From contig JAFYLD010000007.1 of assembly GCA_017537245.1 (NCBI GenBank), positions 1-58,603 on the forward strand: 58,603 nt of DNA, given 5' to 3'. A model generated the notes under the pieces. That model saw only the letters and a list, made by a program, of their open reading frames with translations, did not search any database and had not been told where the DNA came from. A program made the translations under genes and the position numbers. Source of the DNA: Clostridia bacterium. GTDB taxonomy: Bacteria; Bacillota; Clostridia; Oscillospirales; Acutalibacteraceae. Shown here in pieces: positions 37,293 through 57,672 of this stretch. The stretch's first letter is position 1. Each line of letters opens with the position of its first letter.

Positions 37293-37643
37293 TTACAAAT
37301 TGTATTTTTCTTTAGTTGTATTTATAGAAGAAATTAAAACTCGTCTGATTTTACCGCAATCGTTTTGCAATTCAGAATATACATTACTATCAATAATATC
37401 GGTTTTTGAAAAAAGTTTAAGCCAATATTCAGTTTCGTAACATTCTTTAAGTGCAATTTGAAGTTTCGAAATAAAATCGGCTTTGCTTTGTGCATAATTT
37501 GCTTCGTGAATATTAGCACCTATACTAGTACCGCTTTTGAGAATTTGATTTTTCAAAACAGCTTTTCCTTGAATTTGGTCGGTTAATTTCACAATTTTTA
37601 CCGCAAATTCAATAGAAAAATCTACTAAAAAATTATCAGACAT
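37293..37643 (-). CDS. four-helix-bundle protein (S23 / 23S rRNA intervening-sequence protein family)
   Basis: The 116 residues fit the IVP/S23 family: 'FSIEFAVKIVKLTDQI' in helix 1, 'ILKSGTSIGANIHEANYAQSKADFISKLQIALKE' (the family core) and 'ETEYWLKLFSK'. The family was first found in intervening sequences of 23S rRNA and is related to the Avd accessory proteins of diversity-generating retroelements. The ATG at 37643 has AAAGGAGA upstream. There is no rRNA nearby; instead the gene starts about 20 bases from a hairpin array. A nucleic-acid-binding role is inferred. Confidence 0.85.
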   Translation of the reverse strand: MSDNFLVDFSIEFAVKIVKLTDQIQGKAVLKNQILKSGTSIGANIHEANYAQSKADFISKLQIALKECYETEYWLKLFSKTDIIDSNVYSELQNDCGKIRRVLISSINTTKEKYNL

Positions 37644-37664
37644 ATCTTTTCTCCTTTTAATGAT

Positions 37665-37862
37665 ATGCGCTACGCGCATGAAATGATTTCATCATTAAAT
37701 GCAACTAACGTTGCATGAAATAAAAATTGCCATAAATCCCCATTTAAACAATGTGCCGCATCCAAAAGATGCGGCACATTTCATGCTTTAGCATTTCATT
37801 CACAGCGTGAATTTCATTTGCCGTAAGGCAAATTTCATTACAAATAATCGCAGATTATTTGT
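37665..37862. repeat. array of eight short hairpins with ATTTCAT spacers
   Basis: Eight palindromes lie almost end to end: 37665-37679, 37678-37692, 37699-37716, 37750-37780, 37783-37794, 37798-37812, 37816-37833 and 37840-37862. Stems are 5-13 bp with loops of 1-5 nt and differ in sequence. The heptamer ATTTCAT occurs at 37686, 37778, 37793, 37811 and 37832, and its complement ATGAAAT at 37678 and 37715. The last hairpin overlaps the end of the GGGtGRT gene. Only the 13-bp stem looks terminator-like, and it has no good T-run. It lies upstream of the four-helix-bundle gene. Confidence 0.85.
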
Positions 37863-41615: not shown

Positions 41616-41699
41616 GCGAGTGTGCTGGAATAGGCAGACAGGCACGTTTGAGGGGCGTGTGTCCACGACGTATGGGTTCAAGTCCCATCACTCGCACCA
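41616..41699 (+). tRNA. tRNA-Leu (GAG anticodon)
   Basis: The acceptor stem GCGAGTG pairs with CACTCGC, followed by encoded ACCA. The anticodon stem CACGT/GCGTG encloses TTGAGGG, giving anticodon GAG (Leu, CUC/CUU). A long class II variable arm with GTC/GAC stem and the T-arm ATGGG-TTCAAGT-CCCAT are complete. It has a consensus promoter and its own terminator. tRNA genes are common integration sites, and the accessory region starts right after it, but I found no repeat of its 3' end in this window. Confidence 0.95.
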
Positions 41700-42764: not shown

Positions 42765-42811
42765 GCAACACAAAAGCCGCCCATATGAGCGGCTTTTGTG
42801 TTGCTTTTTTA
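42765..42811. terminator. strong intrinsic terminator between converging genes
   Basis: GCAACACAAAAGCCGC (42765-42780) pairs perfectly with GCGGCTTTTGTGTTGC (42789-42804), followed by six T residues on the plus strand. Confidence 0.9.
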
Positions 42812-43117
42812 TTTAGAGTTTAATGTACGAATCATTTGCATGACAGCGCTTTTTTGTTCTGCTGTGAGGCTAACCCAAGAGTCAAAGAGTTCTTTAATTT
42901 CGGGCGTCATCTCAACCATATCACCATCCGCAAAGAACTGGGATATTGTAATGCCAAATCCGGTACAAATGGCCTCTAATGTGCTTATTGAAGGCAATGT
43001 GTTTCGTCTAAAAATATTAGCAAGAGTTGATTCGGACAAACCACATTCTTTAGATAATCTATATTCGGTCCATCCACGCTCATTTAATAGCTGACGAAGT
43101 CTCTTATGTGTATCCAT
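42809..43117 (-). CDS. XRE-family transcriptional regulator
   Basis: The 102-residue protein has an HTH domain at about 5-58 ('RLRQLLNERGWTEYRLSKECGLSESTLANIFRRNTLPSISTL') and a short C-terminal helical tail. The ATG at 43117 has AAGGTGGTG ahead of it; a TTG six codons earlier is less likely. It faces away from the invertible segment and has its own promoter beyond an insulating terminator. A GTAAT-GTG-ATTAC dyad (43179-43191) in its leader could be its operator. It could regulate the neighbouring switch. Confidence 0.88.
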   Translation of the reverse strand: MDTHKRLRQLLNERGWTEYRLSKECGLSESTLANIFRRNTLPSISTLEAICTGFGITISQFFADGDMVEMTPEIKELFDSWVSLTAEQKSAVMQMIRTLNSK

Positions 43118-43178
43118 AGCCTCACCACCTTTCAAGTATATTTTACCGCTAAATTGAATGGTTTTATACTAAATACTT

Positions 43179-43191
43179 GTAATGTGATTAC
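43179..43191. promoter_or_regulatory. candidate operator dyad
   Basis: GTAAT and ATTAC form an inverted repeat around GTG, lying between the predicted promoter and start of the XRE gene. Autoregulation is an inference. Confidence 0.4.
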
Positions 43192-43204
43192 CGTTATGTT
43201 AAAC

Positions 43205-43233
43205 TGTATAATGCATTCTATTTGAGATGTAAA
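43205..43233 (-). promoter_or_regulatory. promoter of the upstream XRE gene
   Basis: On the minus strand TTTACA (43228-43233), 17 nt and TATACA (43205-43210). It lies left of the terminator, so this gene does not need the invertible promoter. Confidence 0.55.
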
Positions 43234-43242
43234 ACCTCAAAA

Positions 43243-43277
43243 GAAAAATCAGCACCTCTTACAAAAAAGATGCTGAT
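43243..43277 (-). terminator. leftward intrinsic terminator facing the invertible segment
   Basis: Read on the minus strand, ATCAGCA plus TCTTT pairs with AGAGG plus TGCTGAT (12 bp with two G-T pairs, 6-nt loop), followed by five T residues. It stops transcription that leaves the left repeat from the outward promoter, about 85 nt after its start. Confidence 0.75.
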
Positions 43278-43281
43278 TATA

Positions 43282-43309
43282 TTTCGCAAAGTATTTAACT
43301 TTAAGAAAA
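43282..43309. repeat. left 28-bp inverted repeat of the invertible segment
   Basis: This repeat is identical over 28 bases to the reverse complement of 44654-44681. It contains a central dyad AAAGT-ATTTA-ACTTT (43288-43302), the expected form of a tyrosine-recombinase crossover site with two arms and a short core. Confidence 0.93.
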
Positions 43310-43335
43310 CTTTATGCTACTGAAAACATAAGTCT

Positions 43336-43364
43336 ATTATACAAAATGGTGTTATATTTGTCAA
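43336..43364 (-). promoter_or_regulatory. perfect consensus sigma-A promoter inside the invertible segment
   Basis: On the minus strand TTGACA (43359-43364), exactly 17 nt and TATAAT (43336-43341). Transcription would start near 43329, about 20 nt before the left repeat, and read out of the segment. There is no gene for it in this direction before the terminator. Confidence 0.9.
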
Positions 43365-43478
43365 TAAATTAATGGCGCTTTTTAAGGAAATAACTGATAT
43401 TTATAATATAAATGTCACATTTATGGTGATTTCGGTATTATTCTCCGTCAAAATCATAGTCATAGGAGGTTTCATTTA

Positions 43479-44591
43479 ATGTCAAGGAGAGGCGAAAATA
43501 TATATCATCGAAAGGATGGTCGTTGGGAAGGACGATACATTAAATACCGTTCTTTAAAAAACAAAACAGTTTATGGATATGTGTATGCAAGTTCATACAA
43601 TGAAGTTAAAGAAAAACTTATTAGTGCAAAAAACGCAGTAGATACAGTTGTTCAAACAAGCAATTATTTTCTTTTTAGTGAAATAACAACGCAATGGCTA
43701 AATAGAAAAAGAGCTACTGTAAAACAATCAACAATAACTCTTTACGAAAACAAAATATCAAATTATTTGCTCCCGTTCTTCGGGAAATATGTTATTGAGG
43801 AAATCACAACATTCATGTTGCAGAATTTTGTTGATGGATTATTGTGTGGACAGGATACTAACAAAAAGCTAGCAACGAAAACTATAGCAGATATTTTGAC
43901 CCTTTTTAAATCAATTCTCAATTTTGCAAAAGAAGCAGGTTGTGTTTTAAAATGCAATCTTTCTATTCTAAAATTAAAGTTTGAAACAAAAGAAATTAAA
44001 ATACTATCTCACGACGAGCAATCGTTAGTGAACAAAAAACTATTTTATTCTGTAGATTACACATCAATCGGGATTTTAATATCTTTGTATACGGGTGTTA
44101 GAATAGGCGAACTGTGTTCTTTAACAACAAATGATATAGATATGTCTTTGTCAAAATTAACGGTATGGAGAACTTTACAACGCATACAAGACAAAAGCGT
44201 GAGCAACCAAAAAACCGTTTTGAAATTTACTGAACCAAAATCGAAAAAATCAGTCAGAGAAATACCCTTGCCTAATTTTATTGTTGATAAATTAAAAGAG
44301 CTCGAATATACGGATGGAACCTTTTTGCTCTCCGGAACAACAAATCCAGTTGAGCCAAGGACTATGGAAAATAGATATAATCGTTTTATGGCGGATCTGG
44401 GTATTCAAGGAACAACTTTTCATACATTACGGCACACCTTTGCAACACGTTGTATTGAAGCAGAATTTGATGTAAAAACCTTAAGCGAAATTCTAGGTCA
44501 TGCAAGTGTTAATCTTACTTTGAACAGGTATGTACACTCTTCGTTTAGTTTAAAAACCGAAAATATGAAAAAGATCTCTTTCGAAATATAA
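43479..44591 (+). CDS. tyrosine recombinase (site-specific integrase/invertase)
   Basis: The 370-residue enzyme has an N-terminal AP2-like arm domain ('YHRKDGRWEGRYIKYR'), a SAM-like core-binding domain (about 65-165), and the catalytic domain with Arg in 'YTGVRIGELCSL', HxLRH in 'HTLRHTFATRC', and His/Tyr in 'LGHASVNLTLNRYVH'. All catalytic residues are present. AGGAGG precedes the ATG. It resembles Tn916-type integrases, but its position between 28-bp inverted repeats suggests that it inverts the segment that encodes it. It reads toward the accessory operon, so weak read-through is possible. Confidence 0.93.
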   Translation: MSRRGENIYHRKDGRWEGRYIKYRSLKNKTVYGYVYASSYNEVKEKLISAKNAVDTVVQTSNYFLFSEITTQWLNRKRATVKQSTITLYENKISNYLLPFFGKYVIEEITTFMLQNFVDGLLCGQDTNKKLATKTIADILTLFKSILNFAKEAGCVLKCNLSILKLKFETKEIKILSHDEQSLVNKKLFYSVDYTSIGILISLYTGVRIGELCSLTTNDIDMSLSKLTVWRTLQRIQDKSVSNQKTVLKFTEPKSKKSVREIPLPNFIVDKLKELEYTDGTFLLSGTTNPVEPRTMENRYNRFMADLGIQGTTFHTLRHTFATRCIEAEFDVKTLSEILGHASVNLTLNRYVHSSFSLKTENMKKISFEI

Positions 44592-44653
44592 TGCGCCGTC
44601 AAAATTTTAGTCAAAAGGATACAAATCGGCTCTATATCAATAAAAAACAGCCT

Positions 44654-44681
44654 TTTTCTTAAAGTTAAATACTTTGCGAAA
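44654..44681. repeat. right 28-bp inverted repeat of the invertible segment
   Basis: This is the exact reverse complement of 43282-43309. It ends 20 bases before the ATG of the XRE gene, and the sequence after it supplies GGAAGGAG as ribosome binding site. The promoter would therefore be joined to the operon by inversion. Confidence 0.93.
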
Positions 44682-44701
44682 ATTAAAGGAAGGAGTTAAC
44701 T

Positions 44702-45256
44702 ATGGAAAATAAAGAAAAATGGAAAATCACAGATGCTGAAAAACAAAGATTTATAAGAGCACTATCAAATGAGCTGTCGGCACTAAGGGCAAAAGCCGGC
44801 GTACCGCAAGATGAACTTGCTAGACTCATTGGTGTTTCAAGACAAACCTATGGAGCCATTGAACGTAAATCCAGAGAAATGTCTTGGAGCACATATTTAT
44901 CATTAATACTATTTTTTGATTACAACAAAGAAACTCATAATATGTTAAGACATTTATCCGCCTTCCCCTCAGAACTTATTGACAGATTTAACGACGGGAA
45001 ACATACAGCCGAGCTAAATATTGAAGAGATTTCTGGGATTGCAATTGACGATATAAATGATAAACTCGACGAACAAGCGCTTCACTCTATAAGAACGGTT
45101 GTAATGCTTGAATATGCTCGATGCAATAATTTGCCTGGCGATGCGGTTGTTAAATCATTTGACGGAAGAACATTTTCCAATGATGTATCAGCAAATGATA
45201 TTCAAATTAAAAGGTCACTAAAGAATTTACAAGGACAAGGTGCCACAACAAAATGA
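44702..45256 (+). CDS. XRE-family regulator, first gene of the accessory operon
   Basis: The 184-residue protein has an HTH domain at about 15-70 ('LSALRAKAGVPQDELARLIGVSRQTYGAIERK') followed by a helical region of unknown role. GGAAGGAG is spaced well before the ATG, immediately outside the right repeat. It overlaps the next gene by 4 bases. The pairing of an XRE protein with an ImmA/IrrE protease is typical of mobile elements, where the protease destroys the repressor on a signal. Its target promoter may be that of the switch. Confidence 0.9.
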   Translation: MENKEKWKITDAEKQRFIRALSNELSALRAKAGVPQDELARLIGVSRQTYGAIERKSREMSWSTYLSLILFFDYNKETHNMLRHLSAFPSELIDRFNDGKHTAELNIEEISGIAIDDINDKLDEQALHSIRTVVMLEYARCNNLPGDAVVKSFDGRTFSNDVSANDIQIKRSLKNLQGQGATTK

Positions 45257-45927
45257 ATACTTTGAGCAAAAAAAGAGCTTGTAAGTTTAAAAAAGAATTC
45301 AAACTTCATAAAGCAACGTATCAAAGCATTTGTGAAATTTTAAATAAGCAAGGGTATGAAATCGTATTATTTAACTCTATATATAATGTACCCGATGTTA
45401 GCAGTTTAATTACTGCATTAAACTTGACTGAGCTAATAAAAGAGAGAAAAGGTTTCACATATGCAGATGCAAATAATAGGATTGTATTTTTAAATGAAGA
45501 TTTATCCGAACAAGAAAAACTGATAGTTCTTTTACATGAAGAAGGCCATATATATTGCGGCCATTTAAACGAAAAAGCTTTAATCGGTCGTGACGTGATT
45601 CAAGAATATGAAGCAAATGAATTTGTGCACTATATATTTAATGAATCACCATGGCAAAAAATCAAAACAAGTATATCTTGTCATAAAAAAGCGTTTTCAA
45701 TTGTTTCTATATTATTGGTTGTGCTAATAGTAATCGGTGTTGCCGCTACTTTGGCTGCGAAAGAAAATTCGTATTATGGCGAATATTACATAACACAATC
45801 AGGCAACAAATATCACGAAAAAGAATGTATTTTTGTAAAAGATAAAAATACAACAAGTCGGCTAACTAAAGAACAATTTGAAAAAGGAGAATATGAACCC
45901 TGTGGAACATGTCTCCCCAATAATTAG
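45253..45927 (+). CDS. ImmA/IrrE-like metalloprotease with membrane anchor and C-terminal zinc module
   Basis: The 224-residue protein has the zinc-protease motif HExxH in 'LLHEEGHIYCGHL' near residue 95, with a later Glu ('EYEANEFVHYI') as third ligand. One membrane helix (about 151-170) leads to a short module 'YHEKECIFVK' ... 'PCGTC', a Cys/His arrangement also seen at the C-termini of thermonuclease-like and Ada-type proteins. It overlaps the XRE gene by 4 bases (ATGA). It probably cleaves that repressor; the membrane anchor could let it sense events at the envelope. Confidence 0.85.
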   Translation: MNTLSKKRACKFKKEFKLHKATYQSICEILNKQGYEIVLFNSIYNVPDVSSLITALNLTELIKERKGFTYADANNRIVFLNEDLSEQEKLIVLLHEEGHIYCGHLNEKALIGRDVIQEYEANEFVHYIFNESPWQKIKTSISCHKKAFSIVSILLVVLIVIGVAATLAAKENSYYGEYYITQSGNKYHEKECIFVKDKNTTSRLTKEQFEKGEYEPCGTCLPNN

Positions 45928-45950
45928 ATCCAAATAAGGAGAGTTTGAGG

Positions 45951-48491
45951 ATGGTAAAAAAATTAAGTTGTATGGTTCTTGCATTAATTTTAATTTTTTC
46001 TGTTTGTATAGTTAATGTAAGTGCTACAAGCAACACGGAAGGTAAAACTATTAAAAAAGTAGTTAGTATTGTTTATGATGATTCTGGCAGTATGAAAAAC
46101 AACAATGAAGACTGGGCATATGCTAGTTATTCACTACAGAATCTTATGGGGTTAATGAATTCACAGGATGAGTTAAGCGTTGTAAAAATGTCGAATCCAA
46201 CTCAAACAGTGGGTTTTGATTTATCAACAAATGCTTCTAGATCCGAAGGCATTAAAACAGTTGAAGGCTGGGGCGCACGTGGTGGAACTCCATTTACAGC
46301 AGTGCAGACAGCTGTCGATTGGCTAAAATCAAAAAAATCCGGATATGCCGATTCACAATCCGTTGAATTTTGGTTAGTTATTATAACGGACGGAAGTTTT
46401 GAGAATGGATACCCCTCTAATATGACAAATTATCTCAACGAACTAAAAGGTTCTATGGGAAATAGCAAATTTGAAGGTATCTTCGTGGCAATTGGCAACA
46501 GTGTTCCCGCCTCAGTGAAAAAGGATTGGACGAGCGTAACCGGTAATCATTTAATAACAGCTAAAAATAGTAACGACATTGTTAACGCCATGTCTGAGGT
46601 ATCCGGTTTAATCATTGGCCAAGGCGGAAAAAGCACAGATGTTAATGTGACCACAACTGCTGATGGCAAAGGTATAACGTTTACTTCCTCTTTCCCGTTA
46701 AAAAAATTCATCGTATATGAGCAAAATCAAAATGTTGGAATTGCCTCAATTAGTGTCAATGGCACCAAAGTTAAAACAACTGCAGATTTTGCAGCCAAAA
46801 AACCAGGCAAAGGCACACTAACATCGAGAACGATCCATTGCGAAAGTGAAGGAACGGATTATATACCCGCAGGTCAAATTACAGTAAATTTTGATTCTAA
46901 AATCAATACAGCAACAAATAACTTTAAAATCCTAACAGATTCTGCTGTTAATGTTGATTTCAAAGTTTTAGATAAGGCTGGAAATGAAATTAAAGATTTG
47001 GATAAAGCCTCTTTGGTAGAAGGCGATTTAGTTGAATTTGCAGCTACGGTAACAAGTAGCATTGACAAAAGTCCTATAAATCTTAAAAACTGGGCTACTG
47101 AAGTATCCGCACAACTTGTTGTAAATGACCAAAGTATCACTATGGAATACAACCTAAGTGATAATACTTTCTATGGTTCGTTCAAAATTCAATCTGGCAG
47201 TAATTTGGCTTACTCAATTATTACATTGCCTGGATATTTCAGAGCTAAATCGGATGTGGTAAATCTTTATCCTATTGAAGTAATAGATAACACATCCGCC
47301 ACCGTTTCCAATAGCACTTTAAATGTTCCGTACAAATATTGTGAAGACTTTGAGGAAATTGGTGCATTTACATATACGGTCTCGGGCGGCTCTATAAACG
47401 GTATTTGCAATTTTGAATTTAAGAATATGCCCAAAGGTATAACAGTTAGTGTTAATGGCATATTTGCCGATGACGATGGTAAACTGTCAGTAAAAATTCG
47501 CAACGACGCACCTGCCGATGTGAAATTTTATCGTAATAAAGACTATAAAGAAACCGAAAAATCAACAATCGCAATCAATGTAACAAGTAACCAATATGTA
47601 TTGCATTGGCAAAAAGATTCCATAACAGAGATTGTAATTAATCCTGTTAAAAGAAAAATAACATTAGAAACTGTTAAAACAAACGGTTCAGAAGAACTTA
47701 AATTAAATGATTTTGATGGAAAAGCAATATATGTGATTTCGGTGTTAGGTAATGGTGAATACCTTTCTAAAGAAGAATTGGAAACTCTAAAACTTGATAC
47801 AAGTAAGTTGGGTGGCATTAAATTAAAAACAGAAGTTATTGAATATAACGGCAAATATGCTCTTCAGATTACCTGCAACAAAACCGCACCTGCTTTATTT
47901 GTTAAAACCGGTGATATTGATTCTGAAATAACAGTTACCACGTTGTATGGAGAAAAATCGGAATCTGAAAAAATTTCATTCTACATAAAAGATAGCATTA
48001 CAAAATATCTTCTCCCATTATTATTAATAATTCTGATCGTTCTTTTGATTGGATATTTGCCGGGAATTAAAAAGCGAATTCCTAATAAAAAATATCATAT
48101 TCAAGCAAACGGCGAAGCAGAGGCTATCTATGTAAAACCCGCAACAAGATTTTTACCATATGTTGCAGAAAAAGGTTCCGGTAGTGACTTATCATTGATT
48201 GCAACGTCAAACAAGAATAGGGTTTCTGTAGTACTTGATCTTTATGACGAGCAAAAGGCTTTACTTGATGGAGAACTACAGGAAAGCAAATCTAAAATAG
48301 ATTTGGCAATTGGTAGCGAATTGAAAATTTCTGAACCAAACAGAGAAACTGTTTATTTATATTGTGATTCACGTAATGATGATACATTCAGTGATGACTT
48401 TGGCGGTCTGGATGACACAGATGATTTGTTTGGTGATGATATGGCGACAGCTTCTGTTAGCGATAATGCTGACGATGATTTTTTCAGTTAA
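45951..48491 (+). CDS. secreted, membrane-anchored VWA domain protein
   Basis: The 846-residue protein has a signal peptide (about 1-24) and a VWA domain with a complete metal-ion-dependent adhesion site: DxSxS at 43-47 ('DDSGS'), the Thr in 'GGTPFTA' near 110, and Asp in 'IITDGS' near 145. Several beta-rich, Ig-like stretches (about 225-680) precede one membrane helix (about 684-706). The cytosolic part of 140 residues ends in an acidic tail rich in Asp and Phe. The ATG at 45951 has AAGGAG upstream. The layout suggests that it binds a ligand outside and transmits it to the tubulin-like partner inside. Confidence 0.88.
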   Translation: MVKKLSCMVLALILIFSVCIVNVSATSNTEGKTIKKVVSIVYDDSGSMKNNNEDWAYASYSLQNLMGLMNSQDELSVVKMSNPTQTVGFDLSTNASRSEGIKTVEGWGARGGTPFTAVQTAVDWLKSKKSGYADSQSVEFWLVIITDGSFENGYPSNMTNYLNELKGSMGNSKFEGIFVAIGNSVPASVKKDWTSVTGNHLITAKNSNDIVNAMSEVSGLIIGQGGKSTDVNVTTTADGKGITFTSSFPLKKFIVYEQNQNVGIASISVNGTKVKTTADFAAKKPGKGTLTSRTIHCESEGTDYIPAGQITVNFDSKINTATNNFKILTDSAVNVDFKVLDKAGNEIKDLDKASLVEGDLVEFAATVTSSIDKSPINLKNWATEVSAQLVVNDQSITMEYNLSDNTFYGSFKIQSGSNLAYSIITLPGYFRAKSDVVNLYPIEVIDNTSATVSNSTLNVPYKYCEDFEEIGAFTYTVSGGSINGICNFEFKNMPKGITVSVNGIFADDDGKLSVKIRNDAPADVKFYRNKDYKETEKSTIAINVTSNQYVLHWQKDSITEIVINPVKRKITLETVKTNGSEELKLNDFDGKAIYVISVLGNGEYLSKEELETLKLDTSKLGGIKLKTEVIEYNGKYALQITCNKTAPALFVKTGDIDSEITVTTLYGEKSESEKISFYIKDSITKYLLPLLLIILIVLLIGYLPGIKKRIPNKKYHIQANGEAEAIYVKPATRFLPYVAEKGSGSDLSLIATSNKNRVSVVLDLYDEQKALLDGELQESKSKIDLAIGSELKISEPNRETVYLYCDSRNDDTFSDDFGGLDDTDDLFGDDMATASVSDNADDDFFS

Positions 48492-48506
48492 AAGGAGTTA
48501 ATGAAA

Positions 48507-51500
48507 ATGAATGAAGGTTATAAAAATGTTCCTGCCCTTTTAATCGGCTTGGGCGGTATTGGTTCAGAAATTGTAGACAGTGTTTACGGTAGACTAAAAG
48601 AAACTGGCATGGCCGAGAATGTTGAGGCTCTTGTGTTTGATACAGATATCAACTCACAAAGAAATCTCACTAACATTAGTGGCGAATGCAAAATCCAAAC
48701 CAGTACAGATAAAACAGTAAAATATGCATTAGAGAACGATCCGACGGCAAAAGATTGGTTCCCCGTTCATCCTTTGGTTGAAAAAATGCAAATGCTTAAC
48801 GGTGCTGGTCAAATTCGTGCCGTTTCTCGTCTCGCACTGCGCTCTGCAATGAAAGCAGGAAAACTCAATTCAGTTTCTGCAGTTAAGGAGCGCTTATTCA
48901 AACTTGGCAGTGGCACAAGTGAAAAAGGCCTTAGAGTAATGATCGTTTCCTCTATGATGGGCGGTACTGGCTCAGGTATGTTCTTGCAAATTCCTCTTTA
49001 CATTAGAGAAATTTTTGAAAGTCAGTTTAATACTGATAAAATCGAGATTCAAGGTACATTTATTTTACCTGATGTACTTAAGGGCTCTATTACCCCTGAA
49101 CAAACCGAAAATGTTTATGCTAACGCATATGCATCGATGAAAGAGCTTAACGCTATGATCATGTCACTTGGCGGAGATGGTTCAAGCATTAACTTGGAAT
49201 ACAAGCCAAATCAGTTAAACTCTGAAGGTATGCGTGATATAGCACTCAAAGATTGGCCTTATGATTATTGCTATTTCTACGATAAAGAGGATACTAAGGG
49301 CCGTGTATTAAGTGGATTTAAAGATTATATCAACATGATTGAAAACAATCTTTATTTGCAAGTATTCGGACCCATTTCCGATAGAATGTATTCTAACTTC
49401 ATCAATGAGATGAGAGGAACTATTCGTAAGAATGGTAGAAACATTTATGGTGGTATCGGTGTTGGAGAGTTAAGCTATCCTTATGATGATATCGTTGATT
49501 ACTGTGTGTATAAGGTTCTTGCGAGTAGCCTTGATAATCAATTGCTTAAAATTGATCAAATTTATCGCGCTGAAATGGATAAGTATAATCGTAACATCCA
49601 GAACGGTATTGACGATCAAATGCCCGACCGTGAAAACGTATATATTACTAACTTCGAATCGTTAGCTACAACTGACAATTTCTTCAGTCAAATCAAACGC
49701 TCGCTAACCGAGTATGATGACAACGATAACGAAGTAAGTGACAATATTAAAAAATTACAAGCAGCCATTGACGAGGAAATTCTTTCGATTTATAACAATG
49801 ACGAAGAATTCAAGGCACAGGTTGGTGCTTGTTACATTAAGCCTGGTTCTTTCTCCAATTTGCCTGCAAAAAAACTTAGAAGTGTTGTATCGAATTGCGA
49901 AAGCCGTTTCCGTCAATTCCGCATCACTGTTGAAGGCAAGGCACAAAACAAAGCAGAATCAAAAGCAAATGCCGATTGGGGCGTATACTCCGAAAATGAC
50001 AAGAGCATTCTTAACGAATTCCTCCGCAACAAAGAAACATATGTCAACTCTGTTGGTATTCGTTACATGCTTTATAAAACCCACAAAAATCTAAAACAAG
50101 CTAAAATTGATTTAGATAACAAACTTGCTGATACAGTTAACAAGCTCAGACGCGGTGAAGAAAAACCTTTTACTTCTCAAAGCGGTGCAGGTGTAGATGC
50201 TGTTAAGAAAGCAGAAGAAGTTGTTAAGAGCAAGGGCTTGTTCAGCAAGAATTTGAAGAACTTTAAAGAGGATTATGCACGTAAAGCTGCAGGTCACTTT
50301 AAGCTCTTAGAAGCATATTGCAAAGATAGCCTCAAATCAGCATATTATGAGCGTTCTATTAAATTATTAGAAGTTTTGATTAGTGAATACGAAAATATGT
50401 TTAGTCGTCTTGCTGATCAGAAATATGAAGTAGAAAAGCACATTAAGAGCCTCCTTATAAAGCATGATGATACTAAGGGTACAACCAATCTTTATGTATT
50501 GGCTAATCAAAAGTATAAAGAACAAATTTGGCGTACAATCCCTGACGATGTTAAAACAAGTATCCTTTCCGGTACTCTTTCTGAAGAAATGCACGGTGCT
50601 CTTTTCAGTGGTTTCCAAAAGAAAGTTAATAACTCTATCGGCCAAGTGGTGAGCTACGATAAACTCTTCCATGACCTTATTGTGAAAAGCTGCCGTGAAC
50701 GCTTACTTGCTAATAGCAGTGTTCGTGAAGAACTTGATATCAATATTATGCAGGCTCTTGAAAGAGAAGCTGATTTCAGTGGTCAGTCTATGTCTAAGCA
50801 AGATTATATTAAGTCTCGTCTTAATACACTTGCCGACTCGGTTTGTCCTTGGACTCCAAAATCAGAAGACTCTAGCGATTTCAACCTTTGGGGTATTAGT
50901 AGCGATTGCAGAACCGCAACCGAATCGCCAGATGAAAAGAGTTCGCTTGAAAAACTTATTGATGATGCATCCGCAGGAAAACTTTCTGCGAACAACGTTG
51001 TAAGTCATAATGTATTGTCAAAGAATAGTATTCTCTTTGTTACCGCCAGATATGGACTCATGGTAAGTGATTTTGTGAAGTTCGCTGCTGGTAAAAACAG
51101 CACTCCTGACGGCGAATACTATGTTGCTTACAAAAATGTTGTAGAGCGTATTCCTAAAGATGGCCAAACCAACACATTTGCCGATACCTCTATTACACCT
51201 CATATTGATAAGAGATGGCATCTTACCTTGCGCGATATTAACGATGCAGTGTATTTGAAGAATATGAATGATGTTGCAAAAGCATTTGTAATTGGTATTG
51301 CCAATAAAAACTTTGTTGTTAAACAGTCTGATTCTTCTTTAAACGTAACACAATTCGTATCAATATTCGACGGAATGCCCACAGCAATCAGTTATCAAGG
51401 CAGTCCTGTTGACGGCAAAATCAAGAACCTGTACAAAGCTTTATCAGGTAACCCAGACTTAGTAAGAAATGTTATGGAAGAATTTGAAAAGTATTGTGAA

Positions 51501-51890
51501 AATGCTCAGAGAAATTCTAACCGTGATATCAGCGTAGTAGAAACCGAATTGATTAAAAAACTTAACGATGTTAAGGTTTTAGGTTACGACGAAGGTAAAA
51601 ACATTGTTGACGTATTTATCAATTTCGAACGTGAATCTACTAAAGCCGAAAAAGATGATAAGAATTATGAAGATAAGTATCGTCTTTTCTACAATGCTCT
51701 TTATGAAGTTATTGAAGATGCGGTGAAACCATATTGCTTCGGCCAAGGAGACTTGGATCTAAAACTCAATTGCAATAAGGTTCTTAATAGTCTTATCCAA
51801 TCATCATATTGGGAAGAAAAATTGAGCAAGGATGATATGGTTTACGCTAGATCTCTTGGTCAGCTTAAAAACAAAGTTGAAAATATGTAA
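48507..51890 (+). CDS. tubulin-like GTPase, long form (Tubulin_2 type)
   Basis: The 1127-residue protein begins with 'PALLIGLGGIGSEIVDSVYGRL', matching the first loop of the tubulin/FtsZ GTP site, and carries the tubulin signature 'GGTGSGMF' near residue 152. 'DTDIN' near 47 is the second loop region. This N-terminal GTPase of about 350-400 residues is followed by about 700 residues of mainly helical sequence with coiled-coil stretches, far longer than FtsZ or TubZ. No membrane segment is seen. I prefer the ATG at 48507 (9 bases from AAGGAG) to 48501. It may form filaments; its function is undescribed to my knowledge. Confidence 0.85.
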   Translation: MNEGYKNVPALLIGLGGIGSEIVDSVYGRLKETGMAENVEALVFDTDINSQRNLTNISGECKIQTSTDKTVKYALENDPTAKDWFPVHPLVEKMQMLNGAGQIRAVSRLALRSAMKAGKLNSVSAVKERLFKLGSGTSEKGLRVMIVSSMMGGTGSGMFLQIPLYIREIFESQFNTDKIEIQGTFILPDVLKGSITPEQTENVYANAYASMKELNAMIMSLGGDGSSINLEYKPNQLNSEGMRDIALKDWPYDYCYFYDKEDTKGRVLSGFKDYINMIENNLYLQVFGPISDRMYSNFINEMRGTIRKNGRNIYGGIGVGELSYPYDDIVDYCVYKVLASSLDNQLLKIDQIYRAEMDKYNRNIQNGIDDQMPDRENVYITNFESLATTDNFFSQIKRSLTEYDDNDNEVSDNIKKLQAAIDEEILSIYNNDEEFKAQVGACYIKPGSFSNLPAKKLRSVVSNCESRFRQFRITVEGKAQNKAESKANADWGVYSENDKSILNEFLRNKETYVNSVGIRYMLYKTHKNLKQAKIDLDNKLADTVNKLRRGEEKPFTSQSGAGVDAVKKAEEVVKSKGLFSKNLKNFKEDYARKAAGHFKLLEAYCKDSLKSAYYERSIKLLEVLISEYENMFSRLADQKYEVEKHIKSLLIKHDDTKGTTNLYVLANQKYKEQIWRTIPDDVKTSILSGTLSEEMHGALFSGFQKKVNNSIGQVVSYDKLFHDLIVKSCRERLLANSSVREELDINIMQALEREADFSGQSMSKQDYIKSRLNTLADSVCPWTPKSEDSSDFNLWGISSDCRTATESPDEKSSLEKLIDDASAGKLSANNVVSHNVLSKNSILFVTARYGLMVSDFVKFAAGKNSTPDGEYYVAYKNVVERIPKDGQTNTFADTSITPHIDKRWHLTLRDINDAVYLKNMNDVAKAFVIGIANKNFVVKQSDSSLNVTQFVSIFDGMPTAISYQGSPVDGKIKNLYKALSGNPDLVRNVMEEFEKYCENAQRNSNRDISVVETELIKKLNDVKVLGYDEGKNIVDVFINFERESTKAEKDDKNYEDKYRLFYNALYEVIEDAVKPYCFGQGDLDLKLNCNKVLNSLIQSSYWEEKLSKDDMVYARSLGQLKNKVENM

Positions 51891-51909: not shown

Positions 51910-51939
51910 GAGGCTGTCCCGATATCAAGGGACAGCCTC
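51910..51939 (+). other. intercistronic stem-loop before the coiled-coil gene
   Basis: GAGGCTGTCCC (51910-51920) pairs perfectly with GGGACAGCCTC (51929-51939) around 8 nt. It has no T-run and stands directly ahead of GGGAGG, the ribosome binding site of the next gene. It is probably an mRNA stability or processing element, or it tunes translation. Confidence 0.7.
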
Positions 51940-51954: not shown

Positions 51955-54123
51955 ATGGTAATAGTAATAGATCTGAGTAGAAAATTAGTAGGTTTTAATT
52001 TATTTGAAAGCTTCTTTTATAAACTCAAAAGCGAAGGTAATTTAGTGTTTGCTAATAACCCTCTCACCGTTGATGATGAAGATTTCAATTATTCCGACCT
52101 AAAAGCCCATGTGCAAAACATTTTATTTGATCACCATGCAAGTTCTTATAGCTTATGTGTTTTGTATGACATGGAAGACCAAAAAAAAGATCCTATTAAG
52201 TGCAGCATTGCCTCTAACATTCACGAAATAAAAGAAAATATCATTAAACCTTTGTCGCAAGAATACTCTTTCGATAAACTTTATTATTTTTCGCTTGATA
52301 ATGTGAAGCGCAATTACGATGGCATTCCATATGATGATAATATCAAATTAGCCATTGATTATGATTCACAAGGATACATAAACGAAGAAATTGATAGTAA
52401 ATATAAAGATATTCTCTTTACCGATGAAGAAATCAATAAAATTGATTTGCTATGGTATGAATTAAGAAATAGAAGTATGTCTTCCGATAATATTTCTATT
52501 AAGGATTCTAAGAAAGTTGCTGCCGAATTCAAAAAGGAACTTAATAACTGCTTTAACACAAAACTATCGTTAATTAATGATAAATACAACAATTTGAGTT
52601 GGTACGCCAAACGCCTTGAAAAAGTGTTCAAGGTGGTTTATGCGAGTTTTGAAACAACATTATATAAAAATGCAAACTCTATAAACTCCATTCAGTCCCC
52701 TTCTGAACTTGTGCGTAACGCGTTGAAGATGGAAGTATCTACATATCGTGAAAGAGATGCAATTATTATTCATATTAACTTGAACGATAAAAACGCCACC
52801 CTCAACCGTGAAGTTCTAAGGTTTAGACACCAATTAGAAATAATTGCACTACTGATTTATTTATCAACTAACGATACAAAACTTGTTTTTGAGGGTGGCC
52901 AATCTATCGGTCGTGAAAATCATTGGGAAATTACAACTATTCTTAATGATGAGAATCTCTCAAAAATGCTGAATTCTTATAATTCAAAACTTAAAACCGA
53001 ACTCGATAAGCTCGGTAAGTTTACCAATAATGAAATCGAATACGAAGAATTCGCACCTAGAACATTTAATCTCGCAATGGAAATGAATAAGCCCGAATTA
53101 CCTGCAACACCTCCGTTCGGAATGTTCTCTAACAAAAAAGATTCCAAAAAAATGGAGAATTTTGCAGATGCTTTGTATGCGAGATATCTTAAGGGCGTTG
53201 ATTATGCCAATAAGAGAATTCGTGAACTTACTACTAAACTGAGAGTTCAAAAAGAATCTGACTCTTCTGGCAAAATTAAAAAAGGAAATATATTAGAGAT
53301 AAGCTCTGAACTCGAAAAAATGCAAAACGATATTAAAACCTTGCAACAACGTATCGCATTTTATCGACCTAAAGAAGCTGTTGCTATTAATCCTAATTTG
53401 AAATTGGAATATGATGTTGTTGTTAAGGATATTCAAGAAATGATGTCCAAGAGACTCAAAGGTTCCACATTTATTAAAAATATCCTTTTGACAATGGGTA
53501 TTTCTTTATGTACATATCCTCTCTTGCAGTTTACAGATATGCCAGATAAAACAATGTTAATAATCTCTTTATTGATGCTGGTTTTACCTGTTTCAATTTA
53601 TATTCTTCTGCAAATTGGATACTCTGCTCTTTTGAATAAGAAGATAGCAAAGAAAATCTCGGCACTTATTTATCAAAACGAAGACCTTGTCAATAACCTC
53701 TTCCGTAATGACAATGAAGCTTCGAAGTATGTTCAAGATATTTATAATTTGATCATGCAAAGAAAATATGTAAACGAGTGTAACGCTAAGGTGATTTCTT
53801 CAAACCGCAAATTCAAGCAATTTAACTATCACCACGACAAATTGAAAGAACACGCAGAAGTAAGTGATAGATTGATTGAAATCTTAGGTATAAACACTTC
53901 TAGCGCAGGCCTAGTTCAAATTGACAAGATGGAAGGTCTTGAAGGTGGAAAAACAGCCGAAATAAATCCGTTGTATTGTCCTTTAAGTTATCTGTTAATT
54001 ACAGATCCTATAAAGAACAAAGCTATAATTAACGATCAGCAAAACGTCGATATCGATAGCAATCTTATTGGTTTTGTTGATAAATTTATTATTAAACACG
54101 ATAAGGAGTACCGCCATGATTAA
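51955..54123 (+). CDS. coiled-coil membrane protein of unknown family
   Basis: The 722 residues show no family that I recognise. The N-terminal 330 residues look like a soluble alpha/beta domain beginning with strand 'MVIVIDLSRKLVGFNLF'. A long coiled coil lies at about 405-480 ('KRIRELTTKLRVQKES', 'ELEKMQNDIKTLQQRI'). Two adjacent membrane helices follow at about 503-522 and 527-550, and a cytosolic tail of about 165 residues ends the protein. The membrane hairpin and coiled coil suggest a scaffold or tether between the tubulin-like protein and the membrane. GGGAGG precedes the ATG. Its end overlaps the next gene by 8 bases. Confidence 0.8.
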   Translation: MVIVIDLSRKLVGFNLFESFFYKLKSEGNLVFANNPLTVDDEDFNYSDLKAHVQNILFDHHASSYSLCVLYDMEDQKKDPIKCSIASNIHEIKENIIKPLSQEYSFDKLYYFSLDNVKRNYDGIPYDDNIKLAIDYDSQGYINEEIDSKYKDILFTDEEINKIDLLWYELRNRSMSSDNISIKDSKKVAAEFKKELNNCFNTKLSLINDKYNNLSWYAKRLEKVFKVVYASFETTLYKNANSINSIQSPSELVRNALKMEVSTYRERDAIIIHINLNDKNATLNREVLRFRHQLEIIALLIYLSTNDTKLVFEGGQSIGRENHWEITTILNDENLSKMLNSYNSKLKTELDKLGKFTNNEIEYEEFAPRTFNLAMEMNKPELPATPPFGMFSNKKDSKKMENFADALYARYLKGVDYANKRIRELTTKLRVQKESDSSGKIKKGNILEISSELEKMQNDIKTLQQRIAFYRPKEAVAINPNLKLEYDVVVKDIQEMMSKRLKGSTFIKNILLTMGISLCTYPLLQFTDMPDKTMLIISLLMLVLPVSIYILLQIGYSALLNKKIAKKISALIYQNEDLVNNLFRNDNEASKYVQDIYNLIMQRKYVNECNAKVISSNRKFKQFNYHHDKLKEHAEVSDRLIEILGINTSSAGLVQIDKMEGLEGGKTAEINPLYCPLSYLLITDPIKNKAIINDQQNVDIDSNLIGFVDKFIIKHDKEYRHD

Positions 54124-57100
54124 AATTTTAATATTCATCGCCGTTGTAATTGGCGCTGCTCTTGCTGCATTTGGTATTCTCGCCACATATAAAGCGTTAA
54201 ATATCAAAAAAGAATATCGTTTCAAACATCATAAGCACTTGGTTTTCTTAAGTGTTGATGTAGCTATTGGTGTACTGGTTTATTTCGGAACATGGATTAT
54301 TTCTTTATTGAGTGAAAAGGCAGCTGCTTTCTTTGAAAGCATTTATACTACTCACTTAATACCAAGTTTGGTTTTATCAGTATTTTTGTTGTATAAAAGT
54401 ATTTATAAAATTTATTTTCATATTTACTCAAAAAAATCTACTGATATTTCCGAAAACAATTTGCCCGTACAATATTACGAAAAGGATGGAGCTTTTTACC
54501 TATCTCCATATTATTCGACTCTCGCTAAAGTCTTTAAGTTTGCAACAATAATAGTTGTAGCACTTATAAGTATTGGTATAGGTATCATTTACCTTGTTAA
54601 CGAAGGTAGCACAGATAAAATTTCTATAACTGTAGAAACATTTATACTCTTACCTTTGTTTTTAATGGAATTGAATTCCTATTTTGACGGGCACCTTGAA
54701 GACGATGTGAAAAGAGCTTTGCAAAATCAAGAATCTCCCAAAGAAAGAGATACCGTTTGGGCAGATTTGGACAAAGAATATCGTCGTCTTTGGAAAGAAC
54801 AATTACTCGGCAGATACAATGTTACCAATAAATATGAAAGAGAGATCATCTCTAAAACAGGAAAAAGAGACCTTCTTTCAGAGAACATTGCAAAAGCAGC
54901 ATCAGGCAATAAATCTAATGATTTTCTTTATTCAAGAATTCTTTCGCCTATTATGCGCGGAGAGGATATGATTATTGAAAGTTGTTTGCTTCAAAGCTTT
55001 TCTGACATTATCGTACCAATTGTTAATATTATGTTTACAGCAAGTAAACGTATGATGTTTGTTTGCGATAGTCAAAGCACCGTTAAACAGTGTGAAAAAT
55101 GGTTTGAAGAGTTGGATATAAAATCTAATACTGCGAATTCCAATATTGTAATTGACGTCTTAAACTACGATAATACAGAGTCAATTAAAATGGATAGCAA
55201 TGTTGATATTTATATCGGCACCGTCGATTTAGCTTTGAATAGTAAGGCGATTTTTGAAAATATTGATGTTGTATTCTGTCTCAACATTGATAAAATTATT
55301 TCTGAAAGTGCACTTAACCTCAACTTGCTTGCATCAGTTCTTTCTAGTGATCGTTACGATAACGTACAATATGTTCTCTTTGGTAACCGTGTAAATGGTC
55401 TTAAACAGACTGCTTCGCAAGTGTTTATGAGAAATAACTTTGGTTATCAAGTAGTTAACAGTTCTATTGAAAAGAGTTTAAGTGCTAACTTCTGGTCAAC
55501 AGAAAAAGGTTGGTTACAGTCAGCAATTCTTCCTGGTTTTGCAGCGCAGTATTTAGGCCAACTTATTCCTCTTGCAATACCTGCGTTTAAATTTGATATT
55601 CGACATGCCGATATTATTTCCGCATCACAATCATTCTCGGATCAGATGCTTTCACTCCAAACAGCACAACCATTGCTCAAAAAATATATGGATAAAGATA
55701 TCCTAAATATTGATGAAGCAATAACATTTGCTGAAAACGAAAACTTCCTTACATTGAATGATAATTCGGTAGTGGTTGTTGGAGATACAAGTAATAACGC
55801 CGCACTAATTCTACTTAACTGGTTAAAATATGCTAAATCGAATATGTTCTTAAACGTTGTATCTTCCCCATATTTGTTGCGCGATTACATCGTTAGCAAT
55901 ATGGATTTCTTCCTTGGTAACGTTGAGGCTATCGGTAATATTTTGCCTGTTCCTAAATCGAACATCAAGCTTTCTGTTTATCGACTTATCAATCAGTTGT
56001 GCTACGGTAACGTTGCGGAAGAAACTTTGTTGCGTGAAATCAAGAACCAAGAAACAGATATCAAAATTGATACTTTTGAAAATGATCAGGTTCGTTTTGT
56101 AACCGAAGCACTTCAAGATTTGACTAAACGTGCTTTTGGAACTAATATTTTCTTTACTTCTTATTTAACATCGCAGAGAATCAATAAAGAAAAATCGATG
56201 GAAAGTAAGCGTTACTACAAATTACTTGATTCCATCAAAAACGAATTACCCGAAAGACTTTTCAAAAACATAACCTTTATTGACTCTGAGCAATTTGCAA
56301 AGGTACTTAAAAGGATACCTGTATTTGAACTTTATCAAAACTATCTTGAAGGCCAATATATTTCTTTTGATGGCAAATATTATTTGATCGACAAGATTGA
56401 TTATGATAATGGCATTGTAGAACTCACTTATTCAAGCAATAACGCAAGTGTTCGTTACCGGCAATGCCGCCAAATCAGCAATGTTGTTCATAGAGGTGTG
56501 AGCAAGGAATTGCCTGTATTAAAGGTTAGAGACAGTATCTTGAAGAAGAGCATTCTACGTGCGGATATAGAAGTTAACACTGATGGTTATTATGAATTTA
56601 ATAATGCTATAAGTTTTGCACCCGGTGGTTTTGCTTATAAGAAAGTTGATGCCAAGAAAAAAGGCTTGCGTCGAAACTATAAATCCACCAACGTTCTTGC
56701 TGTTAATATTACAAGTTCTACAATTGCTGCAATGTCTGCAAAAGAAAAATTTAAGTTATCATTTACACTCAGCGTATTGCTAAATGAGATGTTTGAAACA
56801 CTTTTCTCCAACATTAAGCAGTATATTGTTGTAAGAAGCGTAGTTCCTGATAACAGTCATTGGAGCGATTTTGCAGATCAAGAGATTGTAAATCTTTATA
56901 GACCTATCATTGATACCCAAGTTGATGATGGAATTAACATTTATATTACCGAAGATACCGAACTGGAAAAAGGCATAACAGATACTATTGTTAATAATTT
57001 TGATAATATTATTATGCGCCTTCTTTTCGACTATCTCTTCTGGTTACTACAAGAAAAAGAAGGAAACCGTATCGAAAAATGGTTTGCTTCCGATAGTGGC

Positions 57101-57631
57101 GATTACATCAGCGTAGAAAAGATGGATAAATATCTTTTCCTTAAATATGGTGATGAGCAAGTAAATGAATGTCTTGACCTAGAAGCAGCCTTTAATTGTC
57201 TATATGAGCTTATACTCAAAGGCAACGATACCCTCACTTACAGTAGACTTGAATTTATTCGCAAGAGAATGGAAGGAGATCCTTTCAAACTGTTAGAGGT
57301 TGATGTTGTCGAAGAAGAGCAATTTGCTTCTGAAGAACAAACAGAAGTCGAACCAGAAGAATCGGTTAATGAAGTAATTGCCGATGAATTGGAAGAGACT
57401 ATCGAGACTGCTGAAGAAACTGTTGTCGAAGACGATAATGATGATCAAGTATCAGAATCAACAACAGATGAAACATCCTCTGAAAATACTCCCACTTTTG
57501 AAGAAGAATCCGCTTCTGAAGAAAATGGTACCACTGAAGAAGAAACTGTAGATGAATCTGAAATGGTTGAAGAGACTAAAAAGCGAGAGAAACGTAATAA
57601 GAAAAAAGAAAAATCAAATACAGAAGAATAG
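54116..57631 (+). CDS. polytopic membrane protein with degenerate SF2 helicase-like region
   Basis: The 1171-residue protein has about five N-terminal membrane helices (3-25, 40-64, 75-95, 137-160, 170-188). The soluble part aligns in outline with a superfamily 2 helicase: 'GEDMIIESCLLQSFSD' where the Walker A would be, 'VDIYIGTVDLALN' (motif Ib-like), 'VVFCLNIDKII' where DEAH would be, and a C-terminal part like DUF1998 ('INIYITEDTELEKGI'). The catalytic Lys and DExH residues are absent, so ATPase activity is unlikely. An acidic tail (about 1060-1150) and a Lys-rich end follow. The ATG at 54116 has AAGGAG upstream. The helicase relation is inference. Confidence 0.75.
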   Translation: MIKILIFIAVVIGAALAAFGILATYKALNIKKEYRFKHHKHLVFLSVDVAIGVLVYFGTWIISLLSEKAAAFFESIYTTHLIPSLVLSVFLLYKSIYKIYFHIYSKKSTDISENNLPVQYYEKDGAFYLSPYYSTLAKVFKFATIIVVALISIGIGIIYLVNEGSTDKISITVETFILLPLFLMELNSYFDGHLEDDVKRALQNQESPKERDTVWADLDKEYRRLWKEQLLGRYNVTNKYEREIISKTGKRDLLSENIAKAASGNKSNDFLYSRILSPIMRGEDMIIESCLLQSFSDIIVPIVNIMFTASKRMMFVCDSQSTVKQCEKWFEELDIKSNTANSNIVIDVLNYDNTESIKMDSNVDIYIGTVDLALNSKAIFENIDVVFCLNIDKIISESALNLNLLASVLSSDRYDNVQYVLFGNRVNGLKQTASQVFMRNNFGYQVVNSSIEKSLSANFWSTEKGWLQSAILPGFAAQYLGQLIPLAIPAFKFDIRHADIISASQSFSDQMLSLQTAQPLLKKYMDKDILNIDEAITFAENENFLTLNDNSVVVVGDTSNNAALILLNWLKYAKSNMFLNVVSSPYLLRDYIVSNMDFFLGNVEAIGNILPVPKSNIKLSVYRLINQLCYGNVAEETLLREIKNQETDIKIDTFENDQVRFVTEALQDLTKRAFGTNIFFTSYLTSQRINKEKSMESKRYYKLLDSIKNELPERLFKNITFIDSEQFAKVLKRIPVFELYQNYLEGQYISFDGKYYLIDKIDYDNGIVELTYSSNNASVRYRQCRQISNVVHRGVSKELPVLKVRDSILKKSILRADIEVNTDGYYEFNNAISFAPGGFAYKKVDAKKKGLRRNYKSTNVLAVNITSSTIAAMSAKEKFKLSFTLSVLLNEMFETLFSNIKQYIVVRSVVPDNSHWSDFADQEIVNLYRPIIDTQVDDGINIYITEDTELEKGITDTIVNNFDNIIMRLLFDYLFWLLQEKEGNRIEKWFASDSGDYISVEKMDKYLFLKYGDEQVNECLDLEAAFNCLYELILKGNDTLTYSRLEFIRKRMEGDPFKLLEVDVVEEEQFASEEQTEVEPEESVNEVIADELEETIETAEETVVEDDNDDQVSESTTDETSSENTPTFEEESASEENGTTEEETVDESEMVEETKKREKRNKKKEKSNTEE

Positions 57632-57633
57632 CA

Positions 57634-57672
57634 AATATGGAGAGCACATGAACGTGTTCTCCATATTTTTTC
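57634..57672 (+). terminator. intrinsic terminator of the accessory operon
   Basis: ATATGGAGA-GCAC pairs with GTGT-TCTCCATAT and is followed by six or more T residues, directly after the last stop codon. Confidence 0.88.

Follow-up and report, generated by a model that had tools for sequence, protein, structure and literature searches.

Can a tyrosine recombinase gene that lies between inverted repeats, together with a strong promoter, serve as a switch for the operon beside it? This question is raised by a 1.4-kb cassette on contig JAFYLD010000007.1 of a Clostridia bacterium from the family Acutalibacteraceae (assembly GCA_017537245.1), of which the whole 58.6-kb stretch, positions 1 to 58,603, was analysed and is referred to here as the window. 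We think it likely, with a probability of about 0.8, that the locus is a self-contained invertible-promoter switch. This reading was proposed in an initial annotation of the same DNA, and it is supported by a cassette that recurs in other genomes, by homologous target genes on both sides of such cassettes, by terminators on the side away from the target and by conservation in another species of the genus. Missing from that annotation were the arm-type boxes, the recombinase family and the identity of the operon, all of which are described below.

The cassette is bounded by two copies of a putative recombination core, at 43282–43309 on the plus strand and at 44654–44681 on the minus strand, which form an inverted repeat that is exact over 28 bp and extends to 33 nt at 94% identity. 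Statistics on the 4-kb region around the cassette were drawn from order-1 Markov copies or shuffles; in 300 such copies the longest exact inverted repeat measured 20 nt at most and 13.5 nt on average. Dyad symmetry within the repeats (7/9 in the window, shuffle p 0.3) was tried and not used as evidence. Inside the segment, a sigma-70 consensus promoter (43336–43364, minus strand) points left and out of it, with a 12/12 match, a −35 box TTGACA starting at 43364, a 17-nt spacer and a −10 box TATAAT ending at 43336. This exact pattern occurs four times in the window, compared with 0.02 times per Markov copy (100 copies). Immediately outside the left repeat, an intrinsic terminator at 43278–43247 on the minus strand, which the initial annotation had placed at 43243–43277, receives the promoter in the present orientation; it consists of a 14-pair stem and a T tail, at −17.2 kcal/mol.

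The right flank carries GGAAGGAG at 44688–44695 and an ATG at 44702, 20 nt beyond the repeat, which opens six open reading frames (ORFs) on the same strand, ending at 57631. Repeats, promoter, terminator, start region and six-gene operon were thus all recovered as first annotated. Because only 20 nt separate the right repeat from the ATG, the operon's own promoter cannot fit there, and transcription of the operon must begin inside the segment or further left. A test of what the promoter can reach found a terminator on one side and, on the other, an operon that lacks promoter room and could still be served by read-through from the recombinase gene.

The recombinase itself (43479–44591, plus strand, 370 amino acids; Phage_integrase, E 1.9e-24) is encoded by an intact ORF and has arm-binding-like N-terminal, core-binding and catalytic domains. 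Residues R208, H315, R318, H341 and Y351, which we take to be the catalytic residues, are present and are invariant or nearly so in its recombinase group. Residues 8–58 are predicted to form a strand-strand-strand-helix unit ahead of the core-binding and catalytic domains, and the alignment to full-length lambda Int begins at residue 1 of the recombinase. The N-terminal domain alone, compared with PDB chain sequences, gave only weak and unrelated matches. By sequence, the protein falls in a group of arm-binding (lambda/Tn916-type) integrases.

We compared this locus with 24 loci from named genomes, five from related genomes and further ones among the profile matches listed (loci are numbered L, genomes G). 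Relatives were grouped at a profile score of 330, a cut set after the scores had been viewed, which gave 57 recombinase entries; 52 of these have flanks of 250 nt or more on either side. In 47 of the 52, and in 1 of 83 other integrases, all among the matches listed, the gene is enclosed by an exact inverted repeat of 15 nt or longer, with each copy no further than 600 nt from the gene. Leaving out two identical copies and one palindromic contig gives 44 of 49; as 15 of the 49 sat in the profile, having been picked for their repeats, the independent figure is 29 of 34. The palindromic contig, L037 (3350–5618), shows a 442-nt exact inverted repeat around a group recombinase that is probably an assembly artefact, and it was excluded from the adjusted counts. 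The five entries that fail the 15-nt test are L108 (14 nt), L082 (12 nt), L083 (11 nt), L135 and L052. We also considered whether the group is a strict single clade and rejected this, as a tree of 54 group and 40 control entries needs four label changes; with the control entry L093, which has repeats, falling among the group, the score cut is a convenience. Segment length is about 1.3–1.9 kb across the cassettes.

Candidate arm-type sites lie on either side of the recombinase gene. The upstream one, at 43445–43462 on the plus strand, has a CCGTCA box followed, 12 bp further along, by a degenerate second one, and the downstream site, at 44596–44613 on the plus strand, is its direct repeat. When same-strand 5-mers present both upstream and downstream of the gene were ranked over 48 cassettes, CGTCA (39/48) and CCGTC (38/48) came top, whereas in shuffles any 5-mer appeared on both sides in at most 15 cassettes. 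Neighbouring boxes are spaced at 12 or 13 in 53 of 65 cases. The box pattern is present on both gene sides in 38 of 52 group entries (24 of 34 independent ones) and in 1 of 83 control integrases, and the boxes stay constant while the core repeats differ from locus to locus. CCGTCA-type boxes are thus probable arm sites for the N-terminal domain of the recombinase. As each box pair is inside the segment, inversion would leave its relation to the cores unchanged; the two arrangements would mirror each other, and recombination should be possible in either direction.

To examine orientation, we took the genes that point outward within 1.5 kb of each of 48 cassettes, compared them with one another and joined matches at E 1e-10 into groups. 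Homologous targets across species lie on one side of the recombinase in six cassettes and on the other in ten. A signal peptidase-linked group is found on the promoter side in five cassettes and on the other side in five, camelysin/TasA-like genes in four and three, TetR genes in two and four, and a surface protein beside TetR in one and four; these tallies overlap, several cassettes standing in two groups, and L106/L108/L109 and L115/L119 are close relatives. Within the signal peptidase group, L039, L082 and L127 are joined by weaker matches, mostly at E 1e-11 to 1e-16. Domain searches with single members bear the groups out, with Peptidase_S26 and a SipW model match below the cut-off for L120, Peptidase_M73 for L114 with a match below the cut-off for L110, and TetR_N for the targets of L087 and L086. 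The clearest case is the sister pair L117/L087 (100/100 in the tree), whose segments are 78% identical inside and whose 81% identical flanks stand on opposite sides; a second pair of sisters with opposed orientation is L120/L127 (100/98). Together, the opposed sister pairs and the two-sided homologous targets show that segments of this group have inverted in evolution, more than once.

Terminators track the side without the target. Searching 180 nt to each side, we found a terminator opposite the target in 16 of 23 cassettes and beside the target in 2 of the 23, regardless of recombinase direction, as compared with 1.7% in shuffled sequence; the 23 are the target-assigned cassettes, out of 27, that offer 100 nt or more on the side away from the target. 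A stricter rule for the T tail gave 12 and 3 of 23, and was loosened because A-T pairs of the stem had consumed the T run.

Past the terminator of the window lies a helix-turn-helix (HTH) gene that reads away from the cassette (42809–43135, minus strand), which might serve as a second target were the terminator to leak. A sequence of G023, a different species of the same genus, aligns at 81% with 42825–43365, and similarity stops just past the −35 box. G023 keeps this HTH gene, one core copy with three mismatches and the exact promoter hexamers, along with a hairpin at the terminator's position whose stem, by eye, has changed. This half-locus (L225, G023:C9 8281–9509, reverse complement) thus comprises HTH gene, terminator-like hairpin, core, promoter and a short integrase-like ORF. 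In the 17 kb of G023 examined, no second core-like copy matched comparably well, and the G023 genome gave no tubulin match. The G023 locus looks like a remnant, and the alignment shows promoter and core retained together across species in this case.

From these observations, we infer how the window copy would work. The recombinase would bind both 28-bp cores and, through its N-terminal domain, the flanking CCGTCA-type arm boxes, and would invert the 1.4-kb segment that holds its own gene and the strong promoter. In the present orientation, the promoter would fire into the terminator, and expression of the operon would be low or OFF. Inversion would bring the end of the −10 box to 74 nt before the start codon of the operon's first gene, an HTH gene, and the HTH-M78-VWA-FtsZl1 operon would be transcribed from this promoter (ON). 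With the arm boxes moving along with the segment, both orientations would be equivalent substrates and flipping would be reversible. Such a switch may allow bet-hedging with a cell-envelope or conflict system that is costly.

Several findings weigh against such a switch. Targets of the HTH type seen in the window occur in the present orientation only (window, L103 and L111, and L215 by reading), nine Enterococcus cassettes all have their target operon at the same end, and a direct comparison of four Enterococcus raffinosus strains showed no orientation difference. Of the 48 cassettes, 26 have a gene reading away within 400 nt only 3' of the recombinase, 8 have one only on the promoter side, another 8 (the window included) have one at each end, and 6 have none. 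We detected no inverted copy of the locus elsewhere in its own, 79.6%-complete genome; the repeat, allowing up to three mismatches, occurs in only one other of 70 genomes of the genus, in single copy, and has no exact match in viral contigs. The one-sided bias means either that OFF is the usual state in sequenced cells or that recombinase read-through serves the operon. The present state may also not be silent, as no terminator was found between recombinase and operon in the window cassette and a weaker, rightward promoter-like site (10/12, 44565–44592) faces the operon as it now stands. The 4-kb region contains 27 promoter-like sites scoring at least 9, against 18.4 in shuffles, so a single 10/12 site carries little weight.

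The codirectional recombinase and operon, the missing terminator, the one-way HTH-type and Enterococcus cassettes, the bias of 26 to 8 and the weak site would likewise fit an operon that is expressed now by read-through from the recombinase, with inversion only raising or altering expression, or with the segment locked this way. We consider this rather unlikely, given that a terminator follows the recombinase inside the segment in 10 of 48 cassettes (the window not among them), that other cassettes have homologous targets at either end, and that an outward promoter matching at least 11/12 positions is present in 21 of 48 and is conserved in G023. It is improbable that the element is a two-way switch, in which the promoter serves the HTH gene at 42809–43135 through a leaky terminator and the operon when flipped: that gene does point outward, and G023 has preserved it together with terminator, core and promoter, but a 14-pair terminator intervenes, and in relatives the non-target side mostly has a terminator.

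Two further explanations would deny the cassette any switching role. A single recombinase gene between inverted repeats resembles an insertion sequence, and an identical cassette is present in three genomes of two families (L111–L113), so the repeats might be the ends of a transposon and the presence of promoter and operon coincidental. Repeat sequences that vary between cassettes while the boxes stay constant, flanks that are 73–90% alike in other species with the cassette in place, a terminator on one side with a target on the other, and a repeat without a further copy in the genome make such a one-gene insertion element highly improbable. The Tn916/lambda-type integrase, the nearby HTH genes, the half-locus in the sister species and the lower G+C of cassette (0.31) and operon (0.35) than of the left part of the window (0.41) would fit a decayed integrative element reduced to its integrase and attachment region, with recombination lost. 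The perfect repeats, the intact ORF and the five conserved residues argue against decay. An island at the tRNA-Leu gene (41616–41699) was considered and rejected, as a search for this one type of attachment site found no second copy of the tRNA 3' end in the window. We regard a remnant of this kind as quite unlikely. An invertible-promoter switch remains our preferred reading.

The operon under this putative control begins with an XRE-type HTH regulator of 184 amino acids (44702–45256; all six genes are on the plus strand), relatives of which follow the cassettes L103 and L111–L113 and the recombinase L093. It continues with an M78 (ImmA/IrrE-like) metallopeptidase with an HEEGH motif (45253–45927), and a von Willebrand A (VWA) domain protein (45945–48491) with a hydrophobic N terminus, a DDSGS motif and a VWA_2 match of 25.6 bits, just below the Pfam cut-off of 27. 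Gene 4 (48501–51890) encodes a tubulin/FtsZ-like protein of the Tubulin_2, FtsZ-like-1 (FtsZl1) family with a GGTGSG loop (185 bits, E 2.6e-54). Gene 5 (51955–54123, 722 amino acids) has one transmembrane-like segment, no Pfam match above the cut-off and no NCBIfam match. Gene 6 (54117–57631, its start placed by eye at an ATG overlapping the previous stop) encodes a large membrane-type protein with a transmembrane-like N terminus. By eye, a hairpin with a T run at 57635–57670 on the plus strand would end the transcript, and a perfect 11-bp hairpin without a T run, at 51910–51939 between genes 4 and 5 and near the next ribosome site, is perhaps an RNA processing or translation element.

Gene content places the operon among FtsZ-like-1/VWA systems, here with HTH and M78 genes, and its distribution is patchy. 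Of 394 genomes of the order, 25 have a tubulin match (E 1e-20), as do 3 of 70 of the genus (E 1e-10), its own genome counted. At the 21 of 24 other tubulin loci in the order that were examined, the VWA gene has relatives at 12, and relatives of gene 6 neighbour the tubulin gene at 17. None of these 21 has a group recombinase immediately before the tubulin operon; L065 has a distant integrase upstream and L070 a group member downstream. For 19 of the 21, the up to 5 kb examined upstream contain no exact inverted repeat of 17 nt. L073 and L077 carry exact GTGAAGAGTGAA-type inverted repeats about 250–350 nt apart, roughly 1.1–1.5 kb upstream of the VWA gene, which are perhaps simple repeats or small invertible segments. 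A defence-system reading was rejected, PADLOC returning only general HTH matches when the recombinase, operon genes 1–4 and the upstream HTH gene were scanned. Makarova and Koonin (2010, PMC2875224) propose that FtsZl1/vWA operons form a membrane-remodelling machine. Elsewhere in the window, an ORF at 37293–37679 belongs to the 23S rRNA intervening-sequence protein family (PF05635).

Other cassettes precede operons of different kinds. In L215 (G438:C1, 3662–16075), from the same genus, recombinase L093 with a 28-nt inverted repeat is followed by a window-like HTH gene and then by the type VII secretion gene EssC (TIGR03928); further ORFs there resemble, by eye, WXG100, kinase and phosphatase genes. 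The L092 cassette precedes an MmeI-like methylase (match at the cut-off), L229 accessory Sec genes (SecA2/SecY2/Asp), and L234, with a 14-nt repeat, a WxL cluster. Group cassettes L229–L232 are on Enterococcus raffinosus megaplasmids, and the L230 recombinase is split into two frames. The identical cassettes L111, L112 and L113 (with L216 and L217) are followed by an HTH gene and then by an ORF that looks like an erm(B)-type 23S rRNA methylase; their identity suggests cassette transfer.

We see an even chance that these loci represent a widespread plug-in phase-variation module of Bacillota, in which a lambda/Tn916-type integrase and its arm sites have been tamed into a promoter inverter with its gene enclosed in the segment, and placed before FtsZl1/VWA, type VII secretion, SipW-dependent matrix, accessory Sec, WxL surface and DNA methylase operons, each switchable in part of the cells. 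If so, arm-binding integrases could serve inversion and not mobility alone, and a tubulin-like operon that has gone unstudied would be under phase variation, which could explain a function easily missed in bulk cultures. Recombinases have been deemed unreliable markers of inversion switches because they may be encoded elsewhere (PMC5903667). A recognisable recombinase group with conserved boxes and its gene inside the segment would allow sequence-based switch prediction in uncultured bacteria.

The cassette shares short inverted repeats, an enclosed promoter, a tyrosine recombinase and a target outside the segment with known invertible promoters, namely fim, the flagellar and cwpV switches of Clostridioides difficile with RecV, and gut invertons. 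It differs from them in having the recombinase gene inside the segment, an arm-binding-type domain, arm-like boxes and a length of about 1.3–1.9 kb; two Clostridia group-139 invertons with printed coordinates in PMC11892184 measure about 255 nt and have an invertase nearby. With the integrases of Tn916/Tn1549 and lambda, the recombinase has in common the domain order, the core-binding/catalytic fold and the arm-binding-type N terminus, whereas here no element ends or cargo were identified and the sites are inverted repeats around the gene itself. The invertible Hin segment contains a promoter in addition to its recombinase gene. The layout of the Hin flagellar switch of Salmonella, with the recombinase gene inside the invertible segment (PMC5903667), is common to both systems, yet Hin is a serine recombinase (PMC8987985) and the present enzyme an integrase-type tyrosine recombinase. 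FtsZl1/vWA operons (PMC2875224) similarly have a Tubulin_2 protein beside a VWA protein and membrane-type partners, but here the operon stands behind a promoter cassette and is led by HTH and M78 genes. Arm-binding domains are linked to mobile elements in PMC8138268, and in the literature searches, which covered listings and passages of some papers and few subscription titles, we did not meet an arm-binding tyrosine recombinase inside its own invertible promoter segment. The combination seen here, probable invertible-promoter phase variation with an arm-binding-type integrase encoded inside the segment, sets the locus apart from the known switches named above.
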